From contig DRKP01000023.1 of assembly GCA_011051715.1 (NCBI GenBank), forward strand, positions 1-64,000: a stretch of DNA of 64,000 bases. The letters are read 5' to 3'. A program made the translations under genes and the position numbers. The notes under the pieces were generated by a model. That model made no database searches, was not told the origin of the DNA, and worked only from the letters and a program-made list of their open reading frames with translations. How positions within the stretch are numbered: the first letter of the stretch is position 1; each line of letters starts with the position of its first letter. Below, piece by piece: positions 1-38,161 of this stretch. The DNA is from Sedimenticola thiotaurini. Lineage in GTDB: Bacteria; Pseudomonadota; Gammaproteobacteria; Chromatiales; Chromatiaceae.

Positions 1-440
1 GCCTCCGTGACCGCCGACCAGGGGATCTGTATGCGCTCGCGTGAGATCGAGACGAGGCCGGCCCCCGCGGCCCCGGGACTGGCGGCGAGCAGGCCGGCGA
101 CCACCGCGAAGCGCGCCAGCACACGGCCCCGGCGGTCGAGCGCCTGGTAGGCGACCCCCCGCTCCGAGACCTGGAACCGGGCCCGGTAGCGATTCCCGAA
201 GACCAGCCACAGGATCGCCAGGCCGAGGAGGAACACCCCACCCACGACCAGGGTGAAGATGCCTGCCATCCAGGGCAGCCGATCGAGGCCATCGGCGGCC
301 GCCGCTATCCCTGTGAGGACCACCAGGGAGGTCAGCCAGGTGGCCCCCATGGCCCTGGCCCAGGCGCCGACCACCAGGGGATTGGTCACCAGCGGGAACT
401 CCGCATCCCAAACGAACACCCCGGCGGGCGACCCGTTCAC
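1..440 (-). CDS. Partial membrane protein of unknown function, coupled to the giant surface-protein gene
   Basis: An open frame runs without a stop from a GTG at 440-438 to the window edge, giving 146 codons; the C-terminus lies outside. The GTG overlaps the TGA (439-437) of the upstream giant gene as GTGA, a typical translational-coupling junction. The protein shows hydrophobic stretches at about residues 35-48, 58-82 and 115-135, separated by a basic, polar stretch around residues 84-112, so it looks like an integral membrane protein. No family is recognised. The coupling suggests it is made in proportion to the giant protein and may help anchor or export it, which is inference. There is no ATG start, so simple gene callers could miss it. 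Confidence 0.7.
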   Translation of the reverse strand, partial: MNGSPAGVFVWDAEFPLVTNPLVVGAWARAMGATWLTSLVVLTGIAAAADGLDRLPWMAGIFTLVVGGVFLLGLAILWLVFGNRYRARFQVSERGVAYQALDRRGRVLARFAVVAGLLAASPGAAGAGLVSISRERIQIPWSAVTE

Positions 441-3400
441 CGGGTCTCCTCCGTGCAGCCCCCCCGGTCCACCAGGGTCATGCCGTAGAACAGCGCCACA
501 GCGGAGGCATCGCCCCACTTGGGGGCGTCGAGCAGCTCGAGCCGGACCCGGTCGACCCGCATGGGCGGAAACGAAAACCGGGTCAGGAACAGGCGGTTCT
601 CATAGGTGACCGCATCGTTCACGCCGTCGGTGTGGACGCTGACCCCGGGGGCCGGGTCGATGTGGCCGCCGTTCCACTCGGCGGTGTGGCGGCCCACGAC
701 CATCTCGAAGGAGCGACTGCCCCGGTCCCCGTGCACGGTCACCCGAACCGCGGGCTTGCCCGCGAGCCTGTCGTCCCACCAGGCCAGGCTGGAGGAGAGC
801 CAGATCTGGTCGGCACGCACCCCGGGCACCGTCCACTCCATCTGTTCCGGATAGCAGACGCCGTCGTTGGCGGGGGTGTGACAGCGACTGAGCCACACCA
901 TCGGGGCATTGCCATCCCCGTGCCCGGAGACCGGTATGCCATCGACCCAATAGGGCCTGACCGAACGCCCCTGGCTCGACTTGCGGGTGAAGTCCACCTG
1001 GTGATAGCGGGGCGCCGGCTGCGCCGACGGGCGGTCCGGGGGGCAGCGCCAGAGCCGGCGCAGGCGCCCACTGCTGTGCTCGACCCCCTGGGGATCGACG
1101 TCGACACCGGCAAAGGGCCCCGCCCCCCGCCCCAGGGGATAGCGACTGCTGTAGCCATTGGACCAGGCCAGATGCAGGACGTCACCCTCCAGCCACCAGC
1201 GACCGTGGTTGTTCGGTTCGCGCTGTGACCGGGCCCGGCCGTCCGCAAGAAGGTAGGTTCGGTCGCGATAGCTGCCACTGACATACAGCCAGGTACCGAC
1301 GACGTCCCGCACCCGGGTACCACTAGGCGCGGAAGAACCGGTACCCCCTCCGGCCGGCGGCGCCGCATCCTCGAATTCGACGAGGAAACCGCGCACCGGC
1401 GCGTCTGCGCTGATGTCGTTCCAGGTCGGCGCCTGGAGGCGGCCCTGGCCGAAGAACTGCAGGTGGTCCTCGTGGCCGCCGAAGTTGTCCGGCTGTCCCG
1501 GGGACCAGGCGGTGAAGCCCCAGGGGGTCCCGCCGATCCAGGTCCAGCCCTGGTCATGCGGCCCTTCCTTGGCGCTGCGGTAGCCCCCGAGCCAGGGTCC
1601 GATCCCGTTGCCGTAGCCGTCGATGAACCAGGCGCGCTTGTCCGCGGCGGCGACGGCATAGGCTGCAGCGTTCTCCTCGGCGCTGGTGATCACCGCCAGG
1701 TGGCCACCCATGGCCGCGGCGCGCCGTTGCGCCTCGGCGAAACCGATACCCTCGGGCACAGTGACCAGGAGGAAGCGCTCCCGCGCTCCAGTGGGGGCGG
1801 GATGGCCGGTACCATCCCCTACCGGTGGCGTCGCGTCCTCGAATTCGACGAGAAAGCCGCGCACCGGCGCGTCGGCGCCGATGTCGTTCCAGGTCGGCGC
1901 CTGGAGCCGGCCCCGGGCGAAGAACTGCAGGTGCTCCTCGTGGCCGCCGAAGTCGTTCGGCTCCCCTGGGGACCAGGCGGTGAAGCCCCAGGGGGTCCCG
2001 TCGACCCAGGCCCAGCCCTGGTCCGGTGGCCCCTCCTTGGTGGCGCGGTAACCCCCGAGCCAGGGTCCGATCCCGTTGCCGTAGCCGTCGATGAACCAGG
2101 CGCGCTTGTCCGCGGCGGCGACGGCGAAGGCCGCGGCGTTCTCCTCGGCGCTGGTGATCACCGCCAGGTGGCCACCCATGGCCTGGGCGCGGCGTTGCGC
2201 AGCCGCGAAACTGATGCCTTCGGGTACCGTCACCAGACGAAAGCGGGGGCGATCCGTTCCGTGTTCGCCGGGTCCGGTGGCGGTATCCCGTGGTGTCCGG
2301 GCAGCGGGGGGCGAATCACCGCCTCCGCTTGAAACCGCCTCCTGCAGCCCCTTCCGCGCCTGGTCGAGCCAGGAATGGACCATCCTGTCGTCGTGTTCGG
2401 AGAGCTCCCAGGAGGCCAGCGCCTCGCGCGCATTGTCGAGCATCGCCTGCCACGCCTTCTGTTCGAAGCTGCGGCTGTGGCGCTGGGTGTGCTCCAGAAT
2501 GAACGCATTGTATTCGGCCACGGCCCGGTTGAAACGGTCCATGACCCGTTCGGACAGGGGGTTGGCCATACCCCCAGGCATCTCCCGCTGCAGTTCGTCC
2601 ATGCGCAACATGGCCCGCTGCGCCGACCAGAGACGCCGTTTCTCCATCAACCGCTCGAACTCCGCCGCAGCCGCCTCCACCCGGGGCCAGGAGCGGGCAG
2701 CCTTTTCGGTGATCTCCAGCCGTCCTGCGATCCACTGGTCGCCGGGCGCCAGTTGGACGGCCCGCCGCAGATCGTTCAGAGCGTTGTCGAAGTCCCGCCG
2801 GTAGACCGCCTCCCAGCCGGTTTTGGCCAGGGCCCGTGCCACCGCACCGGCCAGCCGGTCGGCACGATCCCGGTCGAGACGGCGCAGCTGCTCCAGGATG
2901 GGCAGCGCGGCCCGCGGCTCCTTGCGGCGCAGATGATCGCGGACTTCCCGCTCCAGGCGCGCAGTCTCGCCAGCCGTGTCCCTGGTCCGGTCCGTTCCCG
3001 TCTGGCCGGGGGGTGGTGTCGGCTCGACCACCACGACCCGCACTTCCGCCTCCCCGAGGGTCCGCCCATCCCGGTCCGCGGCGGTGACCCGGGCGTGGAT
3101 CGCCCCGGGTTCACTGCGCGACACCCAGGGCTGCGTCGCACCGGCGTTACTGATGCTCGTCCCCGGGTTCACCTGCCAGGACCAGCGCAGCCCCCTGGGC
3201 GACGGGCCGCCTTCGAGCGCCGCCTCCAGGGTGATCTGCTCCCCGGTGAGTCGGGTGCCGCGGGGAACGGGGACCAGGCCTCCCACCTCCGGATCCCAGG
3301 TCAGTGGTTGGACCGGTGGAGGGACCACCCGGGCCCGGACCTGGTAGGCGACCCCGGTGTAGCGCCCGGTCACCGTTGCGATCTCGTCGCCGTGGAAGGG

Positions 3401-6400
3401 AACCCGCGCCAGGGCCTCCAACTCCATCGGCCGGGTGTCCGGCACGGTGAAACGGATGCGACGGCCATTCAGATCCAGGTGAAAACGGTTGCTGACGGGC
3501 TCGATCCAGCGGAAGTCGATGAGTGCATCGGGTACCGCCGGCCGTGACTGGATCCGGGCGACGACCTTCTGCCCGACCCTGGCCTCACCGTTCGGGGGAT
3601 CGAATACCAGGCTGAACCGGGGCGGGCGCACCTGAACCCTCTGTTGTGGACATTCGCCGACGGTATGGAATTCACCCTCGATGCGCTGCAGTACCTCGCA
3701 CCAGATCTTCACTTCGCCGATGCGGTCGAAGGTCACCCGGGTCCGGCCGTCGTCACTGGTGGAGGGGGTGAATGTAAGGCCGGGTTCGGACTGCCAGATC
3801 ACTCGCCACTCGCCGCTCTGGACCAGCGCAGGGGGCGCCAGCTGCGGGACGTCCTCGCTGTCCGGATCGGGTGGGATCACGGTGAGTGGTGGCGATGACG
3901 GGGCGGCGCCCCGGGTCGATGCCCCATGGGCGACCCCGACCTTGCAGTCGGGATCGAAGGGGCCGGTACAGGGACCACCGGCCGCCACCGGCCGGGCCGA
4001 CGGGGCCGGGAGATCGGCACGGAGGATGCGGTCGCTGCCATAGTACACCTCCGAATCCAGGCCGCTGAACGCGAATTCCCGGCCACTCACCTGGATGGTG
4101 ACACTGCCTTCCGCCTGTCCGCCCCCGGCATCCGACACCCGCAGCCGGACCGTCCAGGCACCGGCCCAGGGCGGAGTGAGGCGGGCGCTGGCGCCCTTCC
4201 CTTCCGCGCCATCCCAGTCGTAGCGATAAGGCGCCTTGCCCCCCTCGACCAGGGCGGTGACGATCACCGGAACACCCATGGGCAGGGTACCCTCCGGCGC
4301 CCGCAGCCGGATGTTGAGCTGGTCGGAAGGCGGCCTGGTGGCAGTCGCCGGCCCGTCGTCCAGGCAGGGGCTCTGGTAACGGAGCCTCGGCACCACCGGC
4401 TTGGGATAGGGATAGGGCAGGTGATAGGTCTTTATCAACTGCTCCAGTTCAGCGAACCAATCGGCGTGGTCATAGCCGCCGCTCTCCAGCCGCGCCACCC
4501 GTTGCGGCAGCTCCTCCAGGGAGCGACGGATCAGGCGAACCTCGGCCCAATGCCTGGCTTCCAGTCCGTCCAGGCAGGCCTTTTCATAGCGGCTGGCCTC
4601 CTCGGCGCAGCGTTGCAGACAGGCCTGGTCGGTGGGATCGCAGGCCCCGCTGCAGTCGCCCTGGCGCTGATCGCGCCGCTGTCCGATGGCCTGTTTCAGC
4701 TTTCGCCAGGCAGCGTCCGTCACCGGACCGAGCCGCTGGAGATAGGGCTTCCAGCCGGTCGCCAGCCACACCAGGCGGGCCCTTTTCAACGCCGTCAGCG
4801 CCTCGTCGATCAGGGCGATACGCTGCTGGTACCGGTCAGGCGGCCAGCGGTCCCGCTGCGCCCGTTCCCGTTTCCGCAATTCGATCAGGCGGCGCCACGC
4901 CCCGTTCTCCCGGGCCGCCGCCACCTGTGCCGCGAGTGTCCCGGTGTCGTCGGCTCCCGGCGCCTTCGACTGCGGCCCGGCGACCCCGCCCTCATCATCT
5001 TTCCCCTCCCCCGGTGGCGCCCCATCCTGGTCGCCCGCGGATCCCCCGGTGACACCGGCCACTTCGATGAAGGCCGACGCCTCTCCCCGGCGCCCGCTTC
5101 CGTCCCGTGCCAGTACGGTCACCGTGTAGGTGACGCCGGCATCCCCCGCTTTCCAGACCAGCCGACGGCTCGATGCCCCGGACCAGTGGGCACCATCGTC
5201 CCACGAGTACTCGACCCCGCCGGAGGCGGCTCCCGCAGCCACGGCAGCGGAGAGAACCAGGGGTTCGCCGGGCTTCACGCGGGCGGTTTGCGGCGCGAGG
5301 GTCACGGGGAGGGGTTCGGGAGCACTCCGGTCGAGGACCTTCAGACGGGCGGTTGCGTGACCGCTGCGCCCGTCCCGGTCCTGCACATCGACCCGGATCT
5401 CCAGGGTCCGGCCGACATACTGCCGCCCCACCACCAGCTGCTGATGGAGATCCTCGCCCGCCTGGTGGAACAGCTCCTTGCCGTTCTCGTCACGAATCGA
5501 CCACGTGTAGTGCACGCCGGCCCCCGGTGCCGGCGCCGGCTCCACCACCGCGAACCGCTCCTGCTCGTCCCGGTGAATCCGGTCGCGGTGCCGGGCGAAA
5601 CGGACCTGGAGGGGTCGGCCGTCGACGATGCGGAGCGGTATGCGGGCCGCCGCCTCCCGCCCAAGGTCGTCCTGGACGTAGCAGGCGATCTCCACCTCGC
5701 CCGGTTCCCGGCCGGTACCCTGAAACCAGAGCGTGGCCGCGCCCTCTCCCTGTAACAGCACCTCGTCGCCCAGGGTCCACCGGTAACGAATGGCCCCACT
5801 GTCCGCCGGGGCGGCCACCGTGGCCCGCAACGCAAGCAGACTGGCGTTTCCCCGGGTGGTGACCAGCGCCGGGGTGCGATCCGCGGTCAGCGCCACGGCC
5901 AGGACCTGCCCGTCCCCTGGCGCGCGAAACCACACCGCCAGCTCACGTGATCCGGGGTGGTCGCCGATCTCCAGCTCCAGGTCGGCCGCCTCGTCCCCCG
6001 TTTCCGTGACCAGGCCGGGGGCCGTCACCTGCAGCCGGTAGCGGCCCGGCTGCACACCACGGACGACATAGAGGCCGGGTCGAAGGGTGGTGAATCGGCT
6101 GTCGAGCGGTTGGCCATTGTCATCCTGCAGCGTCAGGGAAGCGCCGGTGACCGCGCGGCTGGCAGCCGTCTCATCCTGCCGCTGCCGCACCCGGACCAGA
6201 AGGGCGCGCCCGGCGTTGAGATAGTGGCGGGCATAGTCGGCATAGAGTCTCTCGACGGCACTTCGGTGGGCCGCGTGGGCGCGTCGATAGGCCCGCTGGG
6301 CAATCAGGGGCACCCGGGCCGTCTCGAGGGCGATGACCCAATAGCGTTCGACGGCAATCCGGGCCCGCATCTCCCGATCGTAATCCGGCTCTTTCCGTGC

Positions 6401-9400
6401 GCCTGGCGCCATCTCCGTCCGGATGGCTTCGAGCCGCCAGTCGATCTCCGTGGCGAGCCCACCGATACGCTGGCGCAGGCGTGCGGCCAGGGCGGTATCC
6501 TGCCCGGGCACGCCGCGCAGGAACGGCAGACCGGTCAGGAGCTGCAACCGGTGCTGTTCCAGGGGCGGCGGCGGCAGTCCCGCCTCCTCCACCAGCCGGG
6601 TGAACTGCCGCTCGATCGCGCTGCGCGCCTCCAGCACCTGTCGGTAGGCCTCCAGGTAGCGACGCAGGATGGTGACCGCCCGGACCTGTTCGCTCTCCGG
6701 CGGGGCCTCGCCACCCAGCCAGCGCTTCTCCGCCTTGAGCCATACCCAGAGGCGCTGCAGATTGCTGGAGCCCCACTCCCGGCTCATCGCCTTCACCAGC
6801 CGTTCCCTGATCCAGAGGGCATCGGCGATCTCCATCAGCTCGTGGAACAGCCGCGGCGCCTCCCCGTTGGCCACGACCGCCTCGGACTGCCTGCGCTGTT
6901 CGAACCGCTCGATCAGGCTCCGCCCGAAATCGACCTTGATCTGCTTCCAGCGCTGGTCGATCTTCTTCTGGAAGTGCTCCCGCACTTTCCAGACAACGAG
7001 CCCCTGCCATTTTTTCATCAGGGACAGGAAAGGATCCATCCGGCCCATGTTGTTCCAGAGCGCCTCGTTGATCCGGGGGAGGTCCAGCAGATCCGTTGAA
7101 CCGGCTTCGATCGCGGCACGATCGACGCGGACCCTGCCCCCGGGCGCGGTATATTCGATCGCGGTCAGGCGGTAGCGGCCGTTGCCGTCCGCCGCCTCCA
7201 CCCGCTCGAATACGGCGCCCTGGTAGAGGGTGTCGATCTGTCGCTCCAGCTCCAGCGACCAGCTCCAGCCCTGATAGCTGTCGTACACGGAATTGGCCAG
7301 GCCGTACAGACCTTCCGGCACCGCCAGGGGTGGAAACAGGAGGTACGCCACCTCGATCCCGGCGCGCAGATAGTTCTCCATCACCACCGCCTCCACCACC
7401 GAGCCACCCGGCACCCGCTGGCGGAACAGCTCCGTGGCGAGGTTCTCGAACGCCTCGCGGGGATCCTTCGCATTCATGACGGCGTCGTAATAGGTCTTTC
7501 CCTCCTGGCCCAGTTGGAACAGCTTGAATGCCCGGTTCTCGGCCACTTTGCCCAGGATGCTGTCATTGAGACGCTGGTTGATGGCAGCCAAACGGGGAAA
7601 CTCGAGCACCACGACCCGGCCTTCTTCCCCGGACCCGCCCATCTCCAGCCTGAGGACACCGGTCTTGCGGATCGACTCCAGGGTGGCTTCGCCGAGCTGA
7701 TCCAGGGCCGAATCCAGCATTTCGGTGGCAGCATAGGCAACACCGGCAACGGAACGCACCGAATGAGGAAGCCGGCCCACCAGGGCATCGTACCGGGCCG
7801 CCAAAGCGTCGTACCGGGCCGCGAGGAAACGGTCGATGCGATCGACCGTGATCCCCAGCTGCAGTACCAGGGCACCCTCCCGGTGGGCGGACGCCTCCAG
7901 CATCTCGACCAGCCGGCGGGTCTCGTCCGGCGGCAGCCTGAAGGCGCTGCGCCTGGCATAGTGCTCCATCGACTTGATCAGGATGGAGATGCGCCGGCTG
8001 ACGTCGGCGGGAATGGCGGCGTGATCCTCCGTCATCGCGGCGATCCCCTCGCTGAGCATCCTGACCACGTCCTGCAGGTGGGCCTCGTCGAGCTGACCGG
8101 CGACGACGATGTCCCGGTTGTCCGGCCTGTTGATGGCGAGGATGAGGGTATGGATGCGACGATCGAGGCCGGCGCGCACGTTGTCCCAGATCAACGTGCG
8201 CACCTGGTCGAGGAATTCCCGCGCCCCCTCGGCGGTAGGCTGCAATCCGACCACCCGGCCATCGTCCCGCTGAACCTCGAACAGGCCGGGTCTGCCGAGG
8301 TCGCGCAGTCCCTGATCGATGAACCGGACCAGCTCGTCGGTGCTGGCCGTCCGCGCCTTCTCGTCCACCTGTTCGACGAATGCGGCCCAGGCCGGATCGG
8401 CCGGATCCAGATGCAGTTCCGCCGAGATCTGATCGTTGCTGCGGCGCAGATACTTGGCACCCTTCTTGACCAGATCGATCCCCTCGAACACATCCATGTT
8501 GCGGATGATGTCGTGCTCCAGGTGCCGGACCATCTCCATCGACAGCATGGGCTCGACGATCTGCTGCCGCCGCCTCTGCCAGGCCTTTTCGAACTCCTCG
8601 TAGAAGACGCGGCTGCGGGTATCGTGGCCCTGCTCCTGGTAACGGATTGCGATCTCTTCGCTCACCACCGTCCGCAAGGCATGTTCGCCGCTGAACACCA
8701 CGGCGGCGTCGGTGCCGATGATGTCCGGGCGTCTGAAATCGATCAGCTCCAGCCCCTTGGGCGACGCCACCATGGCGTCGTCCCCGTACTTGCGCCCCTG
8801 GATGCCCACATAGACCATCTTCTCCGCCGCGCCGTGGGCGGTCGCGACCGAGTCGATCTCGACGGCGATCAGCCCGGTGCGCTCCCGCAAGTGGCGAACA
8901 AAGGCATCGCGCAGGGCGATGACCACCTCCGGGCGCGCCCCGACGAAGGAGAAATCGATATCCCCGGCGAACACCAGCATCTCCGGTTTCTGCACCGCCC
9001 ACTTGCCGATCCTGGCCAGAAACACCGAACCGGTCCGGTGGGTGCCAAAACGCTTGCCCACTTCCGCCACCGCGGAACGGATGCACTCGTTGGTGACCTG
9101 GCGGCGGTAGCTCAGCAGTGCCTTCTCCACCGGCGTGCCCCCGCCGCTGTAACGCTGCCCCAGGAACATCTCGGCCGCGCCCTGCCCGCGCAGCACCTCC
9201 TTCAGCCGGTTCAGTTCGGACATCGGGGTCTTCAGGCCCAGGCGGGCCAGGTCATTGAAGAACCGGTGAGCAGTCTCGTCCGGCGCCTCACCCCGATCCA
9301 GGCCATGTTTCACCTGAAGCAGCAGGCGCGCCAATGACTGCTGGTCCTTGGGCAGACGTTGCAGTACCGCATCGGCGGCGGCAGTGGCGGCCTCCTCCAC

Positions 9401-9607
9401 CACCCCGGGTTCGGGACCGCCCACCGGGGTGGCCGGGTCGGCTGGAAACGACAGTCCGGTGACGAGCAGAAGCGGCAGGGCCAGCAGCAGGTACCACCAG
9501 CCACGCCTACTCTGGAGCGGGGAAGAGACCGGATCCCACCATTGGCGGGGGATCACGGGGGAGAAGGAATGGGGTTTCCCACGGGTTGTCGAAGCCTGAT
9601 CAACCAC
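437..9607 (-). CDS. Giant multidomain surface protein with PKD/Ig-like, TPR-like and tandem C-type lectin domains
   Basis: About 3,056 residues. The chosen GTG start (9607) has AAGGAA six bases upstream; an in-frame GTG at 9682 lacks any ribosome binding site. After about 35 residues comes one membrane segment (about 37-54, preceded by RR), so the bulk is probably outside the cytoplasm. Then follow a GDIDF segment (about 215-219) resembling nucleotidyltransferase active sites, long helical Arg/Glu-rich stretches to about 1150, a prealbumin-like segment (about 1150-1210), three PKD/Ig-like domains (about 1250-1515), a Cys cluster (about 1650-1685), further PKD-like domains (about 1760-1845 and 2100-2195), a TPR-like part (about 2210-2295), two C-type lectin-like domains (about 2450-2590 and 2610-2748), a small beta-rich domain and an unknown C-terminus. 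The first lectin domain has EPN (2549-2551) and WND (2573-2575); the second has QPD (2705-2707) and WND (2729-2731). An adhesin or glycan-binding role is inferred. Confidence 0.75.
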   Translation of the reverse strand: MVDQASTTRGKPHSFSPVIPRQWWDPVSSPLQSRRGWWYLLLALPLLLVTGLSFPADPATPVGGPEPGVVEEAATAAADAVLQRLPKDQQSLARLLLQVKHGLDRGEAPDETAHRFFNDLARLGLKTPMSELNRLKEVLRGQGAAEMFLGQRYSGGGTPVEKALLSYRRQVTNECIRSAVAEVGKRFGTHRTGSVFLARIGKWAVQKPEMLVFAGDIDFSFVGARPEVVIALRDAFVRHLRERTGLIAVEIDSVATAHGAAEKMVYVGIQGRKYGDDAMVASPKGLELIDFRRPDIIGTDAAVVFSGEHALRTVVSEEIAIRYQEQGHDTRSRVFYEEFEKAWQRRRQQIVEPMLSMEMVRHLEHDIIRNMDVFEGIDLVKKGAKYLRRSNDQISAELHLDPADPAWAAFVEQVDEKARTASTDELVRFIDQGLRDLGRPGLFEVQRDDGRVVGLQPTAEGAREFLDQVRTLIWDNVRAGLDRRIHTLILAINRPDNRDIVVAGQLDEAHLQDVVRMLSEGIAAMTEDHAAIPADVSRRISILIKSMEHYARRSAFRLPPDETRRLVEMLEASAHREGALVLQLGITVDRIDRFLAARYDALAARYDALVGRLPHSVRSVAGVAYAATEMLDSALDQLGEATLESIRKTGVLRLEMGGSGEEGRVVVLEFPRLAAINQRLNDSILGKVAENRAFKLFQLGQEGKTYYDAVMNAKDPREAFENLATELFRQRVPGGSVVEAVVMENYLRAGIEVAYLLFPPLAVPEGLYGLANSVYDSYQGWSWSLELERQIDTLYQGAVFERVEAADGNGRYRLTAIEYTAPGGRVRVDRAAIEAGSTDLLDLPRINEALWNNMGRMDPFLSLMKKWQGLVVWKVREHFQKKIDQRWKQIKVDFGRSLIERFEQRRQSEAVVANGEAPRLFHELMEIADALWIRERLVKAMSREWGSSNLQRLWVWLKAEKRWLGGEAPPESEQVRAVTILRRYLEAYRQVLEARSAIERQFTRLVEEAGLPPPPLEQHRLQLLTGLPFLRGVPGQDTALAARLRQRIGGLATEIDWRLEAIRTEMAPGARKEPDYDREMRARIAVERYWVIALETARVPLIAQRAYRRAHAAHRSAVERLYADYARHYLNAGRALLVRVRQRQDETAASRAVTGASLTLQDDNGQPLDSRFTTLRPGLYVVRGVQPGRYRLQVTAPGLVTETGDEAADLELEIGDHPGSRELAVWFRAPGDGQVLAVALTADRTPALVTTRGNASLLALRATVAAPADSGAIRYRWTLGDEVLLQGEGAATLWFQGTGREPGEVEIACYVQDDLGREAAARIPLRIVDGRPLQVRFARHRDRIHRDEQERFAVVEPAPAPGAGVHYTWSIRDENGKELFHQAGEDLHQQLVVGRQYVGRTLEIRVDVQDRDGRSGHATARLKVLDRSAPEPLPVTLAPQTARVKPGEPLVLSAAVAAGAASGGVEYSWDDGAHWSGASSRRLVWKAGDAGVTYTVTVLARDGSGRRGEASAFIEVAGVTGGSAGDQDGAPPGEGKDDEGGVAGPQSKAPGADDTGTLAAQVAAARENGAWRRLIELRKRERAQRDRWPPDRYQQRIALIDEALTALKRARLVWLATGWKPYLQRLGPVTDAAWRKLKQAIGQRRDQRQGDCSGACDPTDQACLQRCAEEASRYEKACLDGLEARHWAEVRLIRRSLEELPQRVARLESGGYDHADWFAELEQLIKTYHLPYPYPKPVVPRLRYQSPCLDDGPATATRPPSDQLNIRLRAPEGTLPMGVPVIVTALVEGGKAPYRYDWDGAEGKGASARLTPPWAGAWTVRLRVSDAGGGQAEGSVTIQVSGREFAFSGLDSEVYYGSDRILRADLPAPSARPVAAGGPCTGPFDPDCKVGVAHGASTRGAAPSSPPLTVIPPDPDSEDVPQLAPPALVQSGEWRVIWQSEPGLTFTPSTSDDGRTRVTFDRIGEVKIWCEVLQRIEGEFHTVGECPQQRVQVRPPRFSLVFDPPNGEARVGQKVVARIQSRPAVPDALIDFRWIEPVSNRFHLDLNGRRIRFTVPDTRPMELEALARVPFHGDEIATVTGRYTGVAYQVRARVVPPPVQPLTWDPEVGGLVPVPRGTRLTGEQITLEAALEGGPSPRGLRWSWQVNPGTSISNAGATQPWVSRSEPGAIHARVTAADRDGRTLGEAEVRVVVVEPTPPPGQTGTDRTRDTAGETARLEREVRDHLRRKEPRAALPILEQLRRLDRDRADRLAGAVARALAKTGWEAVYRRDFDNALNDLRRAVQLAPGDQWIAGRLEITEKAARSWPRVEAAAAEFERLMEKRRLWSAQRAMLRMDELQREMPGGMANPLSERVMDRFNRAVAEYNAFILEHTQRHSRSFEQKAWQAMLDNAREALASWELSEHDDRMVHSWLDQARKGLQEAVSSGGGDSPPAARTPRDTATGPGEHGTDRPRFRLVTVPEGISFAAAQRRAQAMGGHLAVITSAEENAAAFAVAAADKRAWFIDGYGNGIGPWLGGYRATKEGPPDQGWAWVDGTPWGFTAWSPGEPNDFGGHEEHLQFFARGRLQAPTWNDIGADAPVRGFLVEFEDATPPVGDGTGHPAPTGARERFLLVTVPEGIGFAEAQRRAAAMGGHLAVITSAEENAAAYAVAAADKRAWFIDGYGNGIGPWLGGYRSAKEGPHDQGWTWIGGTPWGFTAWSPGQPDNFGGHEDHLQFFGQGRLQAPTWNDISADAPVRGFLVEFEDAAPPAGGGTGSSAPSGTRVRDVVGTWLYVSGSYRDRTYLLADGRARSQREPNNHGRWWLEGDVLHLAWSNGYSSRYPLGRGAGPFAGVDVDPQGVEHSSGRLRRLWRCPPDRPSAQPAPRYHQVDFTRKSSQGRSVRPYWVDGIPVSGHGDGNAPMVWLSRCHTPANDGVCYPEQMEWTVPGVRADQIWLSSSLAWWDDRLAGKPAVRVTVHGDRGSRSFEMVVGRHTAEWNGGHIDPAPGVSVHTDGVNDAVTYENRLFLTRFSFPPMRVDRVRLELLDAPKWGDASAVALFYGMTLVDRGGCTEETR
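1366..2245 (-). repeat. Tandem duplication of the C-type lectin domain coding sequence
   Basis: Two copies of a roughly 400-bp segment (about 1366-1777 and 1834-2245) are offset by exactly 468 bp (156 codons) and nearly identical over long stretches. They encode the two lectin-like domains of the giant protein. The copies differ at the sugar-specificity triplet: codons at 1955-1963 give EPN and at 1487-1495 give QPD. High nucleotide identity indicates recent duplication or ongoing conversion. Confidence 0.9.
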
Positions 9608-9684
9608 CGGTACTTCCTTCGACGGTGCGCTGCACTCCGGCCACGGCGCCCGCCTGTCACGGACCGGCCACGACCTGTTCACTC

Positions 9685-34530: not shown

Positions 34531-35421
34531 ATGGAGATCAACGAACTCGCCGCCTTCGTCGCCGTCGCCGAGACCGGCTCTTTCTCCCGCGCCGCCGAGC
34601 GCCTGTTCCTGACCCAGCCGGCGGTGAGCAAGCGTATCGCCGGCCTGGAGGGCAAGCTCGCGACACGACTGTTCGACCGCATCGGCCACCGCATCCACCT
34701 GACCGAGGCCGGTCGTCAGCTGCTGCCCCGGGCCCGCTCCCTGCTGCTGGAGATCCGCGACATCGAGCGCGGCATCACCAACCTCAGCGGCGAGATCGGC
34801 GGCACCCTCCGCATGGGGACCAGCCACCACATCGGCCTGCGGCGGCTGCCGCCGGTGCTGAAGCACTACAGCCGCTCCTTCCCCCGGGTGAAACTGGACA
34901 TCCGCTTCCTGGATTCGGAATCGGCCTGCGCCGCGGTGGAACAGGGGGAGCTGGAGCTGGCGGTGGTGACCCTGCCACCGGCCCCCTCTCCGGTACTGGA
35001 ACTGACCCGCATCTGGCACGACCGGCTGCGCTTCGTGGTGGCCGCTGATCATCCGCTGGCGGGGCGCAGGCGTGTCACCCTGGCGGACCTGGCCGGCTTC
35101 CCGGCGGTACTGGCGGCTCACGGCACCTACACCCGCGGCATCCTGGAACAGGCGATGGCGCCACTGGGGCTGTCGCTGCAGGTGGGGATGGCCACCAACT
35201 ACCTGGAGACGCTGAAGATGATGGTGAGCATCGGCCTCGGCTGGAGCCTGTTGCCGGAGAGCATGCTGGACGATCCCGGCCTGCGGCCACTGCAGCTGCC
35301 GGAGATGGCCCTGTCACGGGAGCTCGGCGTGGTCGTCCACCGCCATCGCGTGCTCTCCAACGCCGCCCGGGAGATGCTGGAGAGCTGCCGTCGGTTCCGG
35401 GATCCCCCGGACCGGGGATGA
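34531..35421 (+). CDS. LysR-type transcriptional regulator, divergent from leuCDB
   Basis: The 296 residues are the normal LysR-type length. The N-terminal helix-turn-helix is clear (ETGSFSRAAERLFLTQPAVSKRIAGLE), followed by the linker helix and an effector-binding domain of two alpha/beta lobes. The divergent position and the shared palindrome make leuC the likely target, with an intermediate such as isopropylmalate as a possible co-inducer; this is inference by analogy with LeuO/LysR pairs. Its last 108 bp overlap, tail to tail, the end of the toroid-protein gene on the other strand. Confidence 0.88.
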   Translation: MEINELAAFVAVAETGSFSRAAERLFLTQPAVSKRIAGLEGKLATRLFDRIGHRIHLTEAGRQLLPRARSLLLEIRDIERGITNLSGEIGGTLRMGTSHHIGLRRLPPVLKHYSRSFPRVKLDIRFLDSESACAAVEQGELELAVVTLPPAPSPVLELTRIWHDRLRFVVAADHPLAGRRRVTLADLAGFPAVLAAHGTYTRGILEQAMAPLGLSLQVGMATNYLETLKMMVSIGLGWSLLPESMLDDPGLRPLQLPEMALSRELGVVVHRHRVLSNAAREMLESCRRFRDPPDRG

Positions 35422-36540
35422 GGCGGGCGCTCCCCGTCGACCCGGGATCCCGCCCCGTTCGAGCTTGAGCAGGGCGGAGAGGCAGTGCTGGGTGGAATCG
35501 ATCCGCAGCTGGGGGCGGTGGGCGCCGTCGAGGAACCCCCCCCGGTAACGGGGCAGTTCGGGCGCCACCAGGTAACGGCCCTGGCCGAAGACGATGCGAT
35601 CCTGGCCGGGACGCAGCTGCAGCGCCAGGTTCTTCTCCATCTCGGCCGCCACCCGCTCGCGCACCCGGTCCAGCAGTTCGTCGTCACCGCCCGCGGCCAG
35701 CACCCCCGCCCCCGCCACCAGCCCCTCCACCGAGTAGCAGCTGTTGGAACGGGGATTGACCCGTGGCCGCAGCGAGTCCAGAAAGAACCGCATCTGGTCG
35801 GCGGCGAAACGGCGGAAGCGCGCTTCCCCGGTGGTGTGGTAGCGCACCGCCGCCGCCATCACGCCCCAGTGGAAGAAACCGATCCCGGGATTGCGGCGAT
35901 AACGCTCCATCAGGCCCCTGTCAGCCTGCTGCAGCGCCACCGCCACCCGGTCGTCGAGCGGATGGCGGCGGTGGTAGCTGGCCAGCGCCAGCCAGGCCTC
36001 CCCGTCGGAATAGGGCGAGGCCCGCTCCACCCCGGGCCGGCTGCGGAAACCGCCATCGGCCCGCTGCAGCGCCAGCAGGCCACGCAGCCAGGCATCCAGC
36101 CGGCGCTGCATCTCCGGTCCCGTCAGCCCCCCCTGGAGGAGGGCCAGCAGCGCCAGCGCCGTGGCGCCGGTCTTGGCCCCCGCGGTGGTACCGTCCAGGC
36201 TCACCAGGCGACCGTCACGCCAGGGGATGGAGCGTCGGTCCAGGGCAGCGAGCGCCCGGCGCAGCGCCGCCTCCACGCGGGGATCGGAGCCGCCATCGAG
36301 GTACTCTCCCAGGGCGTAGGCGGCGCCGGCCTGGCGCACGATGTTGTTGCGGCGGGAATCACGCCCGTCGATGAAGTCGTGGCGATAGCGGAACAGGCCA
36401 TCCTCGAGCTGGGCCTCGAGCAGGAAGTCGATGGCCCGGCCGACGCGCTCCCCGGCGACGACGGAGGCGGCTGTCAGGAGCAGGACGAGGAGCAACACCC
36501 CCGCGTGCCAGTGGCCCCGGGCGCGGATTCCCGCCTCCAT
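35314..36540 (-). CDS. Secreted alpha/alpha-toroid (prenyltransferase/squalene cyclase-like fold) protein
   Basis: The 408-residue protein has an N-terminal signal peptide (hydrophobic core about 12-27, ending AASVVA). Helical repeats carry motifs such as EDGLFRYRHDF and RADGGFRSRP, spaced like those in the terpenoid-cyclase/prenyltransferase toroid. No catalytic DxDD motif is evident, so an enzyme function is not claimed; toroid domains also act in protein or glycan binding. Its ATG overlaps the stop of the lipoprotein gene by one base (TGATG), so it belongs to the ECF sigma operon. The last 36 codons are antisense to the end of lysR and look unlike the repeat domain, which may be a read-through extension. 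Confidence 0.75.
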   Translation of the reverse strand: MEAGIRARGHWHAGVLLLVLLLTAASVVAGERVGRAIDFLLEAQLEDGLFRYRHDFIDGRDSRRNNIVRQAGAAYALGEYLDGGSDPRVEAALRRALAALDRRSIPWRDGRLVSLDGTTAGAKTGATALALLALLQGGLTGPEMQRRLDAWLRGLLALQRADGGFRSRPGVERASPYSDGEAWLALASYHRRHPLDDRVAVALQQADRGLMERYRRNPGIGFFHWGVMAAAVRYHTTGEARFRRFAADQMRFFLDSLRPRVNPRSNSCYSVEGLVAGAGVLAAGGDDELLDRVRERVAAEMEKNLALQLRPGQDRIVFGQGRYLVAPELPRYRGGFLDGAHRPQLRIDSTQHCLSALLKLERGGIPGRRGAPASSPVRGIPEPTAALQHLPGGVGEHAMAVDDHAELP

Positions 36541-37463
36541 CAGCTGTTGCGGCCGGGAACCCGCCAGCGTCCCTGGCCGCCGCGACAGACGATGCCGGCT
36601 CCGACCCGGTCACCGCCTGCATCCCCCACCAGGATGCGGTAGCTCCGGCAATAGTGTCCATCCTTCAGCTTCATGGTCCGCAGCGGGGTGATCCCCACCT
36701 GCCGGTGGCGCCCGGCCTGCGGAAGCCAGAGGGTGGAACCGGCCGGCTGGTGTTCCATCGCCCACTGGAAGCGTTCGTCAAAGGCGCGGCGCTGCGCCTC
36801 GCCGAGGTGCTCCAGGGAGGGATGGAAGGCGAGCAGTTCGCGCCGGCGGATGGGTCGACCGGGGGACTCGGTCACCTGCAGCACCACCTGCTCCAGCTCC
36901 GGGGCGTAGTACCAGTAGCGGCGCTGGCGGAACTGTCCCATCCTGTTGCTGCGCTCACACACCACGCGATAGGTGGAGAAGGTGCCGGCCGCCAGATCGA
37001 GCCGCCAGCTGCCGTCCACCTCGCAGTGAAAGTCACGACTGGAGCTCTTTCTCTGCCCGCTGCGCTTGTCCAGGGAGCTGCGCCGGCTGGCAAAGCGGCC
37101 GCTGTTCCCCTGCTGCAGCGGCCACAGCAGATCTTCGGCCACGTCGGACAGGTTGGTCACCCGGTAACGGCGCCCTTCCCGTTCCAGTTCGGGGAGGATG
37201 AAGTTGCGGCCGGTGCGATAGCGGGTCCCCCCGGAGGTGCGCCAGGTGACCGTATCGCCATCGACGGCGATCACCTCCTCCCAACGGCCATTGTCGAGCC
37301 GGCGCCGGTCACCGACACGATGGCGTGGCAGGGGGGCGGGCGCCAGTCCGGAGAGCGCCTCGCTCTTCACCCCTTCTGCCACCGGCATGATGCAGCCGGC
37401 AAGCAGCCCCGAGGCGAGCAGCGGGAGCACGACACGCCTGACCGTCGCCCCAATCCCCTTCAT
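36540..37463 (-). CDS. Lipoprotein with a Cys-Cys-Trp surface-antigen-like C-terminal domain
   Basis: The protein has 307 residues from the ATG at 37463, which overlaps the anti-sigma stop (TGATG). The N-terminus VLPLLASGLLAGC is a lipobox, so the protein is predicted to be lipid-anchored. The middle part is beta-rich with two Cys. The end, LRTMKLKDGHYCRSYR and then IVCRGGQGRW, has two Cys 21 residues apart and Trp seven residues later. The anti-sigma factor encoded directly upstream ends with the same pattern, and Rickettsia-type 17-kDa surface antigens have a related tail. A sensory partner for the anti-sigma factor is a reasonable inference. Confidence 0.8.
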   Translation of the reverse strand: MKGIGATVRRVVLPLLASGLLAGCIMPVAEGVKSEALSGLAPAPLPRHRVGDRRRLDNGRWEEVIAVDGDTVTWRTSGGTRYRTGRNFILPELEREGRRYRVTNLSDVAEDLLWPLQQGNSGRFASRRSSLDKRSGQRKSSSRDFHCEVDGSWRLDLAAGTFSTYRVVCERSNRMGQFRQRRYWYYAPELEQVVLQVTESPGRPIRRRELLAFHPSLEHLGEAQRRAFDERFQWAMEHQPAGSTLWLPQAGRHRQVGITPLRTMKLKDGHYCRSYRILVGDAGGDRVGAGIVCRGGQGRWRVPGRNS

Positions 37464-38161
37464 CAAAACAGTTCGTTTCCCTTTTTCTCCGGAATGATCA
37501 GGCGGGTCTGCCAGCGCTCCCGGCCGAGCCGGCACGACAGACCACGCCGCTCTTCCCTGACGCCGTCGATGACCAGGGTCTCGCGATACTCCCTGCAGTA
37601 GCGGTCGTCACCCATCTTCAGAGTCCGCACCGGCTGCAGTTCCGCCGAGGCATTATAGCGGCTGCTGGCCCAGTTGACAGTGGTGCCGCTGGGGGTGTAC
37701 TCCAGGGCCCTGGCGAGGGCCGACCTGGCCTCCGCCCGGGAGGCCTCGGCCGCCGCCAGGCGCGCATCGAAACGGGATGTGGTGGTGGTCACCCCGAGGC
37801 CGTAGCCGACCGCCAGCAGCAGCACGCCCGCCGCCAGCGCCCCCAGGGGACGCCACCAGGTGCCGCCTCTGTGGTCAGGCACCGGCACCGTTCCCTCCTG
37901 GCGCTGGCGGATCTGCTCCAGGGTCGCGCCGAGCCCGGGGTCGACGGGACGATGGAACGCCTCGTCCAGTGCCTCGCGGCAGCGTGAATCGACCCCGCGC
38001 AGCAGCTCCAGGCAGGCGGCGGCTTCGGGGTCCTCCCGGATCCAGCGTTCCACCCGGTCCGGTTCGTCCCCGTCCAGCTCCCCGTCCAGGTAGGCGTTCA
38101 GTCTCAGCCCATCCTCCACCGACAGGGCATCACAGGGGGTCCGGTCACGTTCTTCGTTCAT
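37463..38161 (-). CDS. Membrane anti-sigma factor with a periplasmic surface-antigen-like domain
   Basis: The 232-residue protein starts at an ATG overlapping the sigma factor stop (ATGA). The N-terminal cytoplasmic part (LNAYLDGELDGDEPDRVERW) looks like an anti-sigma domain. One membrane helix lies at about 103-124, then a short coiled coil, then a periplasmic domain with VRTLKMGDDRYCREYR and LSCRLGRERW. The two Cys are 21 apart with Trp seven residues on, exactly as in the downstream lipoprotein. A zinc-binding HxxxCxxC motif is absent. It should hold the sigma factor inactive until an envelope signal, perhaps redox via the Cys pair, relieves it; the signal is inferred. Confidence 0.85.
   Translation of the reverse strand: MNEERDRTPCDALSVEDGLRLNAYLDGELDGDEPDRVERWIREDPEAAACLELLRGVDSRCREALDEAFHRPVDPGLGATLEQIRQRQEGTVPVPDHRGGTWWRPLGALAAGVLLLAVGYGLGVTTTTSRFDARLAAAEASRAEARSALARALEYTPSGTTVNWASSRYNASAELQPVRTLKMGDDRYCREYRETLVIDGVREERRGLSCRLGRERWQTRLIIPEKKGNELF

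Follow-up and report, generated by a model that had tools for sequence, protein, structure and literature searches.

Two near-identical C-type lectin-like domains carrying EPN and QPD triplets in a giant protein of Sedimenticola thiotaurini

Introduction

The EPN and QPD triplets of animal lectins differ in that the hydrogen-bond donor/acceptor pair is reversed between them. EPN tends to accompany mannose binding and QPD galactose binding, though exceptions are documented, and the aromatic residue neighbouring the triplet also matters (PMC10377782, PMC8235521). The galactose binder CEL-IV has EPN, and changing QPD to EPN in CEL-I did not by itself convert the lectin, mannose preference requiring that the stacking residue Trp105 be changed too (PMC10377782). 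In the scallop lectin CfLec-3, mannan binding was switched by an Asn/Asp exchange, while an EPD to QPD swap left the PAMP profile unchanged (PMC4432315). Both triplets can reside in one polypeptide, as in the dual-CRD insect lectin IML-2 of Mythimna separata, with EPN in CRD1 and QPD in CRD2 (PMC8235521).

Here, we analyze a giant bacterial protein encoded in a 64,000-nucleotide stretch of S. thiotaurini DNA (GCA_011051715.1, contig DRKP01000023.1, positions 1 to 64,000), from now on referred to as the window. The original prediction, made from the sequence alone, placed a lectin-like pair at 1360-2250, one member with EPN and the other with QPD, and proposed that a recent 468-bp duplication had produced a dual-specificity glycan binder. 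The pair is real and consists of two C-type lectin-like domains (CTLDs) on the minus strand. The predicted window span was correct; the residue range of 2450-2750 was not, the domains lying within residues 2481-2770.

Results

Organization of the giant ORF and its genomic setting

The giant ORF (437..9682, minus strand) fills the left end of the window and encodes 3081 amino acids from a GTG start; codons 26 and 43 are GTG as well and offer alternative starts in frame. By codon-position G+C, the ORF resembles the real genes of the window. An N-terminal basic-hydrophobic segment (residues 58-82) includes the most hydrophobic stretch of the whole sequence, residues 61-80 following an RR pair (RRGWWYLLLALPLLLVTGLSFPA; 9443..9502, minus strand), which, judged by hydrophobicity, is a probable Sec signal peptide or anchor. 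The N-terminal third of the protein (6300-9400, minus strand) is without a Pfam domain, and searches of 57 genomes of the family, 274 of the class and plasmids returned no homologues of it; a stretch within it, FAGDIDFSFVG, resembles a nucleotidyltransferase motif by eye. Further along, Pfam detects a weak TPR match and three PKD stretches, the best of which spans residues 2146-2216 (3035..3247, minus strand). The two CTLDs are followed by a C-terminal region (residues 2771-3081; 437..1372, minus strand) that matches neither Pfam nor PDB sequences.

The neighbours of the giant ORF are ordinary chromosomal genes encoding a MerR regulator and a methylmalonyl-CoA-mutase-type fused enzyme, with truA, fimV, a semialdehyde dehydrogenase gene and leuBCD-type genes located farther away. 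None of the flanking genes checked indicates a defence, phage or secretion operon, and searches for a phage or viral origin returned zero matches in phage records and zero in IMG/VR. Elsewhere in the window, an ORF cluster (35314-38161, minus strand) contains two ORFs without a Pfam match and one with a weak match to zf-HC2 (anti-sigma-like).

Both domains match C-type lectins in sequence and predicted fold

Both domains match C-type lectins beyond chance. Scored over the whole protein, PF00059 (Lectin_C) reaches 27.3 bits in two stretches against a curated cutoff of 22.6; a genome-scale Pfam search at E<=0.001 did not report PF00059 for this protein. Matches to PDB lectins have E-values of about 1e-6. 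With phmmer, CTLD1 (residues 2481-2614; 1841..2242, minus strand) matches langerin, SP-D, Mincle, codakine and CEL-I (E about 2e-6 to 5e-6), langerin being its best solved sequence relative with EPND...WND in register. CTLD2 (residues 2637-2770; 1373..1774, minus strand), the second PF00059 stretch, matches CEL-I first (E 8.6e-7), with GQPDNF...WNDISA aligning to GQPDNW...WNDNSA of CEL-I. In these PDB alignments the EPN or QPD triplet, the downstream Glu and WND all coincide with those of the solved lectins.

The AlphaFold2 model of CTLD1, built from an 11-row alignment, is confident (pLDDT 91.8, pTM 0.88), and the fold of CTLD2 is taken from its 87% identity to CTLD1. A model of the two-domain tandem reached a pLDDT of only 45.6 with a thin alignment and was not used. 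When the CTLD1 model was compared with the PDB using Foldseek, all 50 matches listed were C-type lectin-like domains (E 2e-8 to 8e-7, TM about 0.6-0.73), headed by sugar-bound mannose receptor CRD4, Mincle, codakine and CEL-I; langerin was also matched, and both EPN lectins and QPD lectins are included. In the model, the triplet is carried by the loop that separates strand 82-84 from strand 107-114, and WND is part of strand 122-127, as in CTLDs generally. The triplet therefore falls within the long loop of a fold predicted with confidence, which removes the objection that it might lie outside this loop.

The calcium-site positions are filled in both copies

In CTLD1, the EPN triplet comprises residues 2574-2576 (1955..1963, minus strand), is followed by D2577 and F2578 and aligns with EPND of langerin. 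Glu2582 (1937..1939, minus strand) aligns with the Ca ligand Glu193 of MBP-A, and WND (residues 2598-2600; 1883..1891, minus strand) provides the positions of Asn205 and Asp206. CTLD1 thus shows, by alignment, the pattern of mannose-type CRDs, namely EPN together with the Glu193, Asn205 and Asp206 positions. In CTLD2, the QPD triplet comprises residues 2730-2732 (1487..1495, minus strand), is followed by N2733 and F2734 and aligns with QPDNW of CEL-I, with Glu2738 (1469..1471, minus strand) at the position of the Glu193 Ca ligand and WND at residues 2754-2756 (1415..1423, minus strand) in alignment with CEL-I. All five Ca-site-2 ligand positions (MBP-A 185, 187, 193, 205 and 206) are accordingly filled in both alignments, by E/N/E/N/D in CTLD1 and by Q/D/E/N/D in CTLD2, and the prediction that both domains keep WND and the acidic residue was borne out. 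The residue beside the triplet is Phe in both domains and the loop length is equal; CTLD2 has Phe rather than Trp at this position and is without the glycine-rich loop insertion. No cysteines are present between residues 2012 and 2879 of the giant protein, so neither CTLD has the four cysteines, forming two disulfides, of animal CRDs.

An in-frame tandem duplication that is not very recent

The tandem duplication (1308..2253, minus strand) is evident in the DNA, where the segment at about 1308-1785 has a matching counterpart at a distance of 468 bp, and the unit of 468 bp, or 156 codons, covers one CTLD and a linker of about 22 residues. CTLD1 and CTLD2 are identical at 116 of 134 amino acids and differ at 43 of 402 nucleotides within the domain. 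An assembly duplicate as the source of the second CTLD is ruled out because the copies differ at about 11% of sites. Three methods put silent divergence (dS) at 0.27-0.59, and dN is 0.06-0.07; therefore, contrary to the original claim, the duplication is not very recent, and amino-acid change has been constrained. The ratio dN/dS of about 0.1-0.26 indicates purifying selection overall. A run of 24 identical codons between the copies (scan p=0.006) suggests that either partial gene conversion or constraint has acted locally.

The unusual feature of the pair is the high identity of its members, owing to which the triplet is the most conspicuous functional difference between them. EPND and QPDN are separated by three first-position codon differences, GAG/CAG, AAC/GAC and GAC/AAC. 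Clustering of replacements at the triplet was rejected as evidence: the p-value is 0.008 for that window alone and 0.51 for any 4-codon window scanned.

EPN and QPD are tied to intact calcium ligands in bacterial homologues

A census of 87 non-redundant CTLDs, aligned by iterated profiles, was drawn from sampled, non-exhaustive sets of genomes of the window's phylum and class and of the phyla of a Verrucomicrobiaceae genome and a Ruminococcus genome, together with eight named genomes; a scan of contigs with conserved peptides, which were uninformative, gave 8 loci. EPN is found in 32 and QPD in 12 of the 87 domains. Among the 36 domains in which Glu193, Asn205 and Asp206 are all present, the window's two included, the triplets are EPN (27), QPD (6), NPD (2) and NLD (1), while in the 51 domains with an incomplete ligand set EPN or QPD occurs 11 times and the other triplets are scattered. 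With the window pair excluded, EPN or QPD is found in 31 of 34 ligand-intact CTLDs compared with 11 of 51 others, a large effect for which the Fisher p of about 1e-10 is only indicative because the set includes related, and hence non-independent, sequences and because the 51 contain some partial or poorly aligned domains. The triplets are thus not random among homologues, and their link to the remaining Ca ligands lends support to the Ca-site reading and strengthens the interpretation of both domains as Ca-dependent lectins.

Mixed EPD or QPN triplets are absent from the ligand-intact CTLDs, which, together with the dominance of the two canonical pairs, suggests that these pairs matter functionally. 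QPD is followed by N in five of the six ligand-intact bacterial QPD domains, the window's included. Tandem arrays with other mixtures also exist, specifically MPD/EPN, TPN/QPD and a triple array of NPD, NPD and EPN (L070, G560:C59) that is accompanied by many bacterial TSP3 repeats, which bind Ca in other proteins. As a whole, the census gives the triplet rule structural meaning across several bacterial phyla and is useful for annotating bacterial CTLDs.

Discussion

A candidate heterobivalent glycan-binding protein

We consider it somewhat probable, on the basis of sequence and modeling, that the giant protein is exported and binds glycans in a heterobivalent manner, probably as an adhesin, and that its two Ca-dependent heads, which differ in predicted preference, arose by duplication and a specificity switch. 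The protein would be exported and extended, consisting of an N-terminal signal or anchor, PKD/Ig-like spacers, the two CTLDs and the C-terminal region. Each CTLD most likely holds a single Ca2+ in canonical site 2, by way of which it binds a terminal sugar. The EPN triplet of CTLD1 predicts a preference for sugars with equatorial 3-OH and 4-OH groups of the mannose, GlcNAc, glucose and fucose type; given its aromatic neighbour, this domain could bind mannose-type sugars or others. Like CEL-I, CTLD2 combines QPD with an adjacent aromatic residue, and this predicts a preference for galactose/GalNAc, which is plausible and a weaker case than for a QPDNW lectin, Phe being at the stacking position. 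The pair arose via the in-frame 468-bp tandem duplication, with three first-position codon changes splitting EPND from QPDN and the Ca cage staying intact. Two glycan classes would then be bound at once, most plausibly by an adhesin or a biofilm- or particle-attachment protein. The dual-lectin interpretation is supported in part, namely as regards the place of the triplets in the predicted long loop, their register with the Ca-site-2 ligands and their coupling to the other ligands among homologues, but deriving specificity from the triplet alone, as originally done, does not hold, given that CEL-IV binds galactose with EPN.

It is possible, though unlikely, that both CTLDs are Ca-dependent lectins of the same or overlapping specificity, in which case the EPN/QPD difference would alter affinity rather than sugar class and the pair would confer bivalent avidity. 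The 87% identity of the domains, their shared Phe neighbour and equal loop length fit such an arrangement, as do the documented exceptions to the triplet rule, including the swap to QPD in CfLec-3 that did not change its PAMP profile (PMC4432315). However, both hydrogen-bonding residues (E/Q and N/D) have been switched together, and the ligand-intact bacterial CTLDs are dominated by the two canonical triplets, with EPD and QPN absent, a pattern suggesting that the pairs have functional weight.

An improbable alternative is that one or both domains are folded modules with a structural role, or recognize protein, ice or mineral instead of sugar. Several animal CTLDs have such ligands, the PDB matches include type II antifreeze proteins, and 51 of the 87 bacterial CTLDs, some of them partial or poorly aligned, have lost Ca ligands. 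Nevertheless, every Ca-site-2 ligand position has been retained in both copies though other positions changed, and among the homologues the triplet is statistically linked to the ligands. We regard it as very improbable that the triplet difference is functionally meaningless, resulting from neutral drift in a redundant and partly gene-converted repeat. While amino-acid changes are not exceptionally clustered at the triplet once all windows are scanned and no orthologue was found in the family and class genomes to show maintenance, drift would in most cases yield a mixed or broken triplet. Instead, CTLD2 carries precisely the other canonical triplet, QPD, with N next to it, as is usual for QPD in bacteria.

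The heterobivalent reading in its fullest form, a surface protein whose dual specificity stems from duplication and a three-codon triplet switch and which serves as an adhesin bridging mannose-type and galactose-type glycans, is put forward tentatively, as somewhat short of probable. If true, the protein would be a natural bacterial counterpart of the EPN/QPD swap done by mutagenesis in animal lectins. Should the two CTLDs bind different sugars, they would constitute an unusually clean natural experiment, in which 87%-identical, cysteine-free domains differ at the specificity triplet. The EPN/QPD rule would then become testable outside animals, and a compact heterobivalent lectin would be at hand.

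Comparison with known systems

The nearest plasmid-borne bacterial relatives of the window's CTLDs are fused CTLDs of the Alphaproteobacteria Phaeobacter and Rhizobium (31-39% identity). Unlike the window's domains, several of these have lost Ca ligands (NPD...Q or QPG...Q), and they are fused to enzyme domains. Two Rhizobium plasmid ORFs (L106, 2173-3369; L107, 2071-3396) encode a class III adenylate/guanylate cyclase, a hydrophobic segment that is probably membrane-spanning and a C-terminal CTLD, an architecture that suggests a glycan- or wall-sensing cyclase. Fusions of caspase (Peptidase_C14), peptidoglycan-binding and CTLD segments are encoded on a Phaeobacter plasmid (L105) and in a same-phylum genome (L006, L014 and L015; G152:C1 974654-998353). 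In the latter, three CTLD ORFs share a stretch of 24 kb, their Ca sites are partly degraded, and the full fusion was confirmed in two. The window's order additionally has small single-CTLD ORFs (L111, L112, L115 and L116); two species of one genus differ here, having EPND and QPDD, respectively. Their tails, composed of VPLP/VPEP, a hydrophobic stretch and basic residues, are presumably PEP-CTERM-like and therefore suggest extracellular use.

In sequence and fold, CTLD1 is best matched by langerin, mannose receptor CRD4, SP-D and Mincle. They share EPN, Glu and WND in register with it, but they are animal proteins with disulfides and about 22-24% identity over the fold. CEL-I from Cucumaria echinata (1WMY/1WMZ), a QPD lectin binding GalNAc/galactose, resembles CTLD2 in the QPD-N-aromatic motif, the triplet-to-Glu spacing and WND. 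It differs in having Trp105 where CTLD2 has Phe and in the conserved cysteines that CTLD2 lacks, and it is a single small animal lectin whereas CTLD2 is located toward the end of a giant bacterial protein.

The pairing of EPN and QPD, implied at the outset to be unique, is also found in a Clostridia dockerin protein and in the armyworm lectin IML-2. The Clostridia protein, from a rabbit-gut MAG (L041, G472:C27; 1006 aa in the stretch examined), likewise has tandem Lectin_C domains with EPN first, QPD second and Glu and WND intact. Its two domains are clearly diverged, however, and are followed by a cellulosome-type dockerin in an otherwise unrelated protein, possibly a cellulosomal dual-specificity lectin. 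IML-2 combines EPN and QPD in one protein as the giant protein does but is an animal immunolectin of two CRDs only, with conserved cysteines. The EPN/QPD mixture is widespread in bacterial C-type lectins, and the giant protein, as an added case with near-identical copies, is therefore a good test case.
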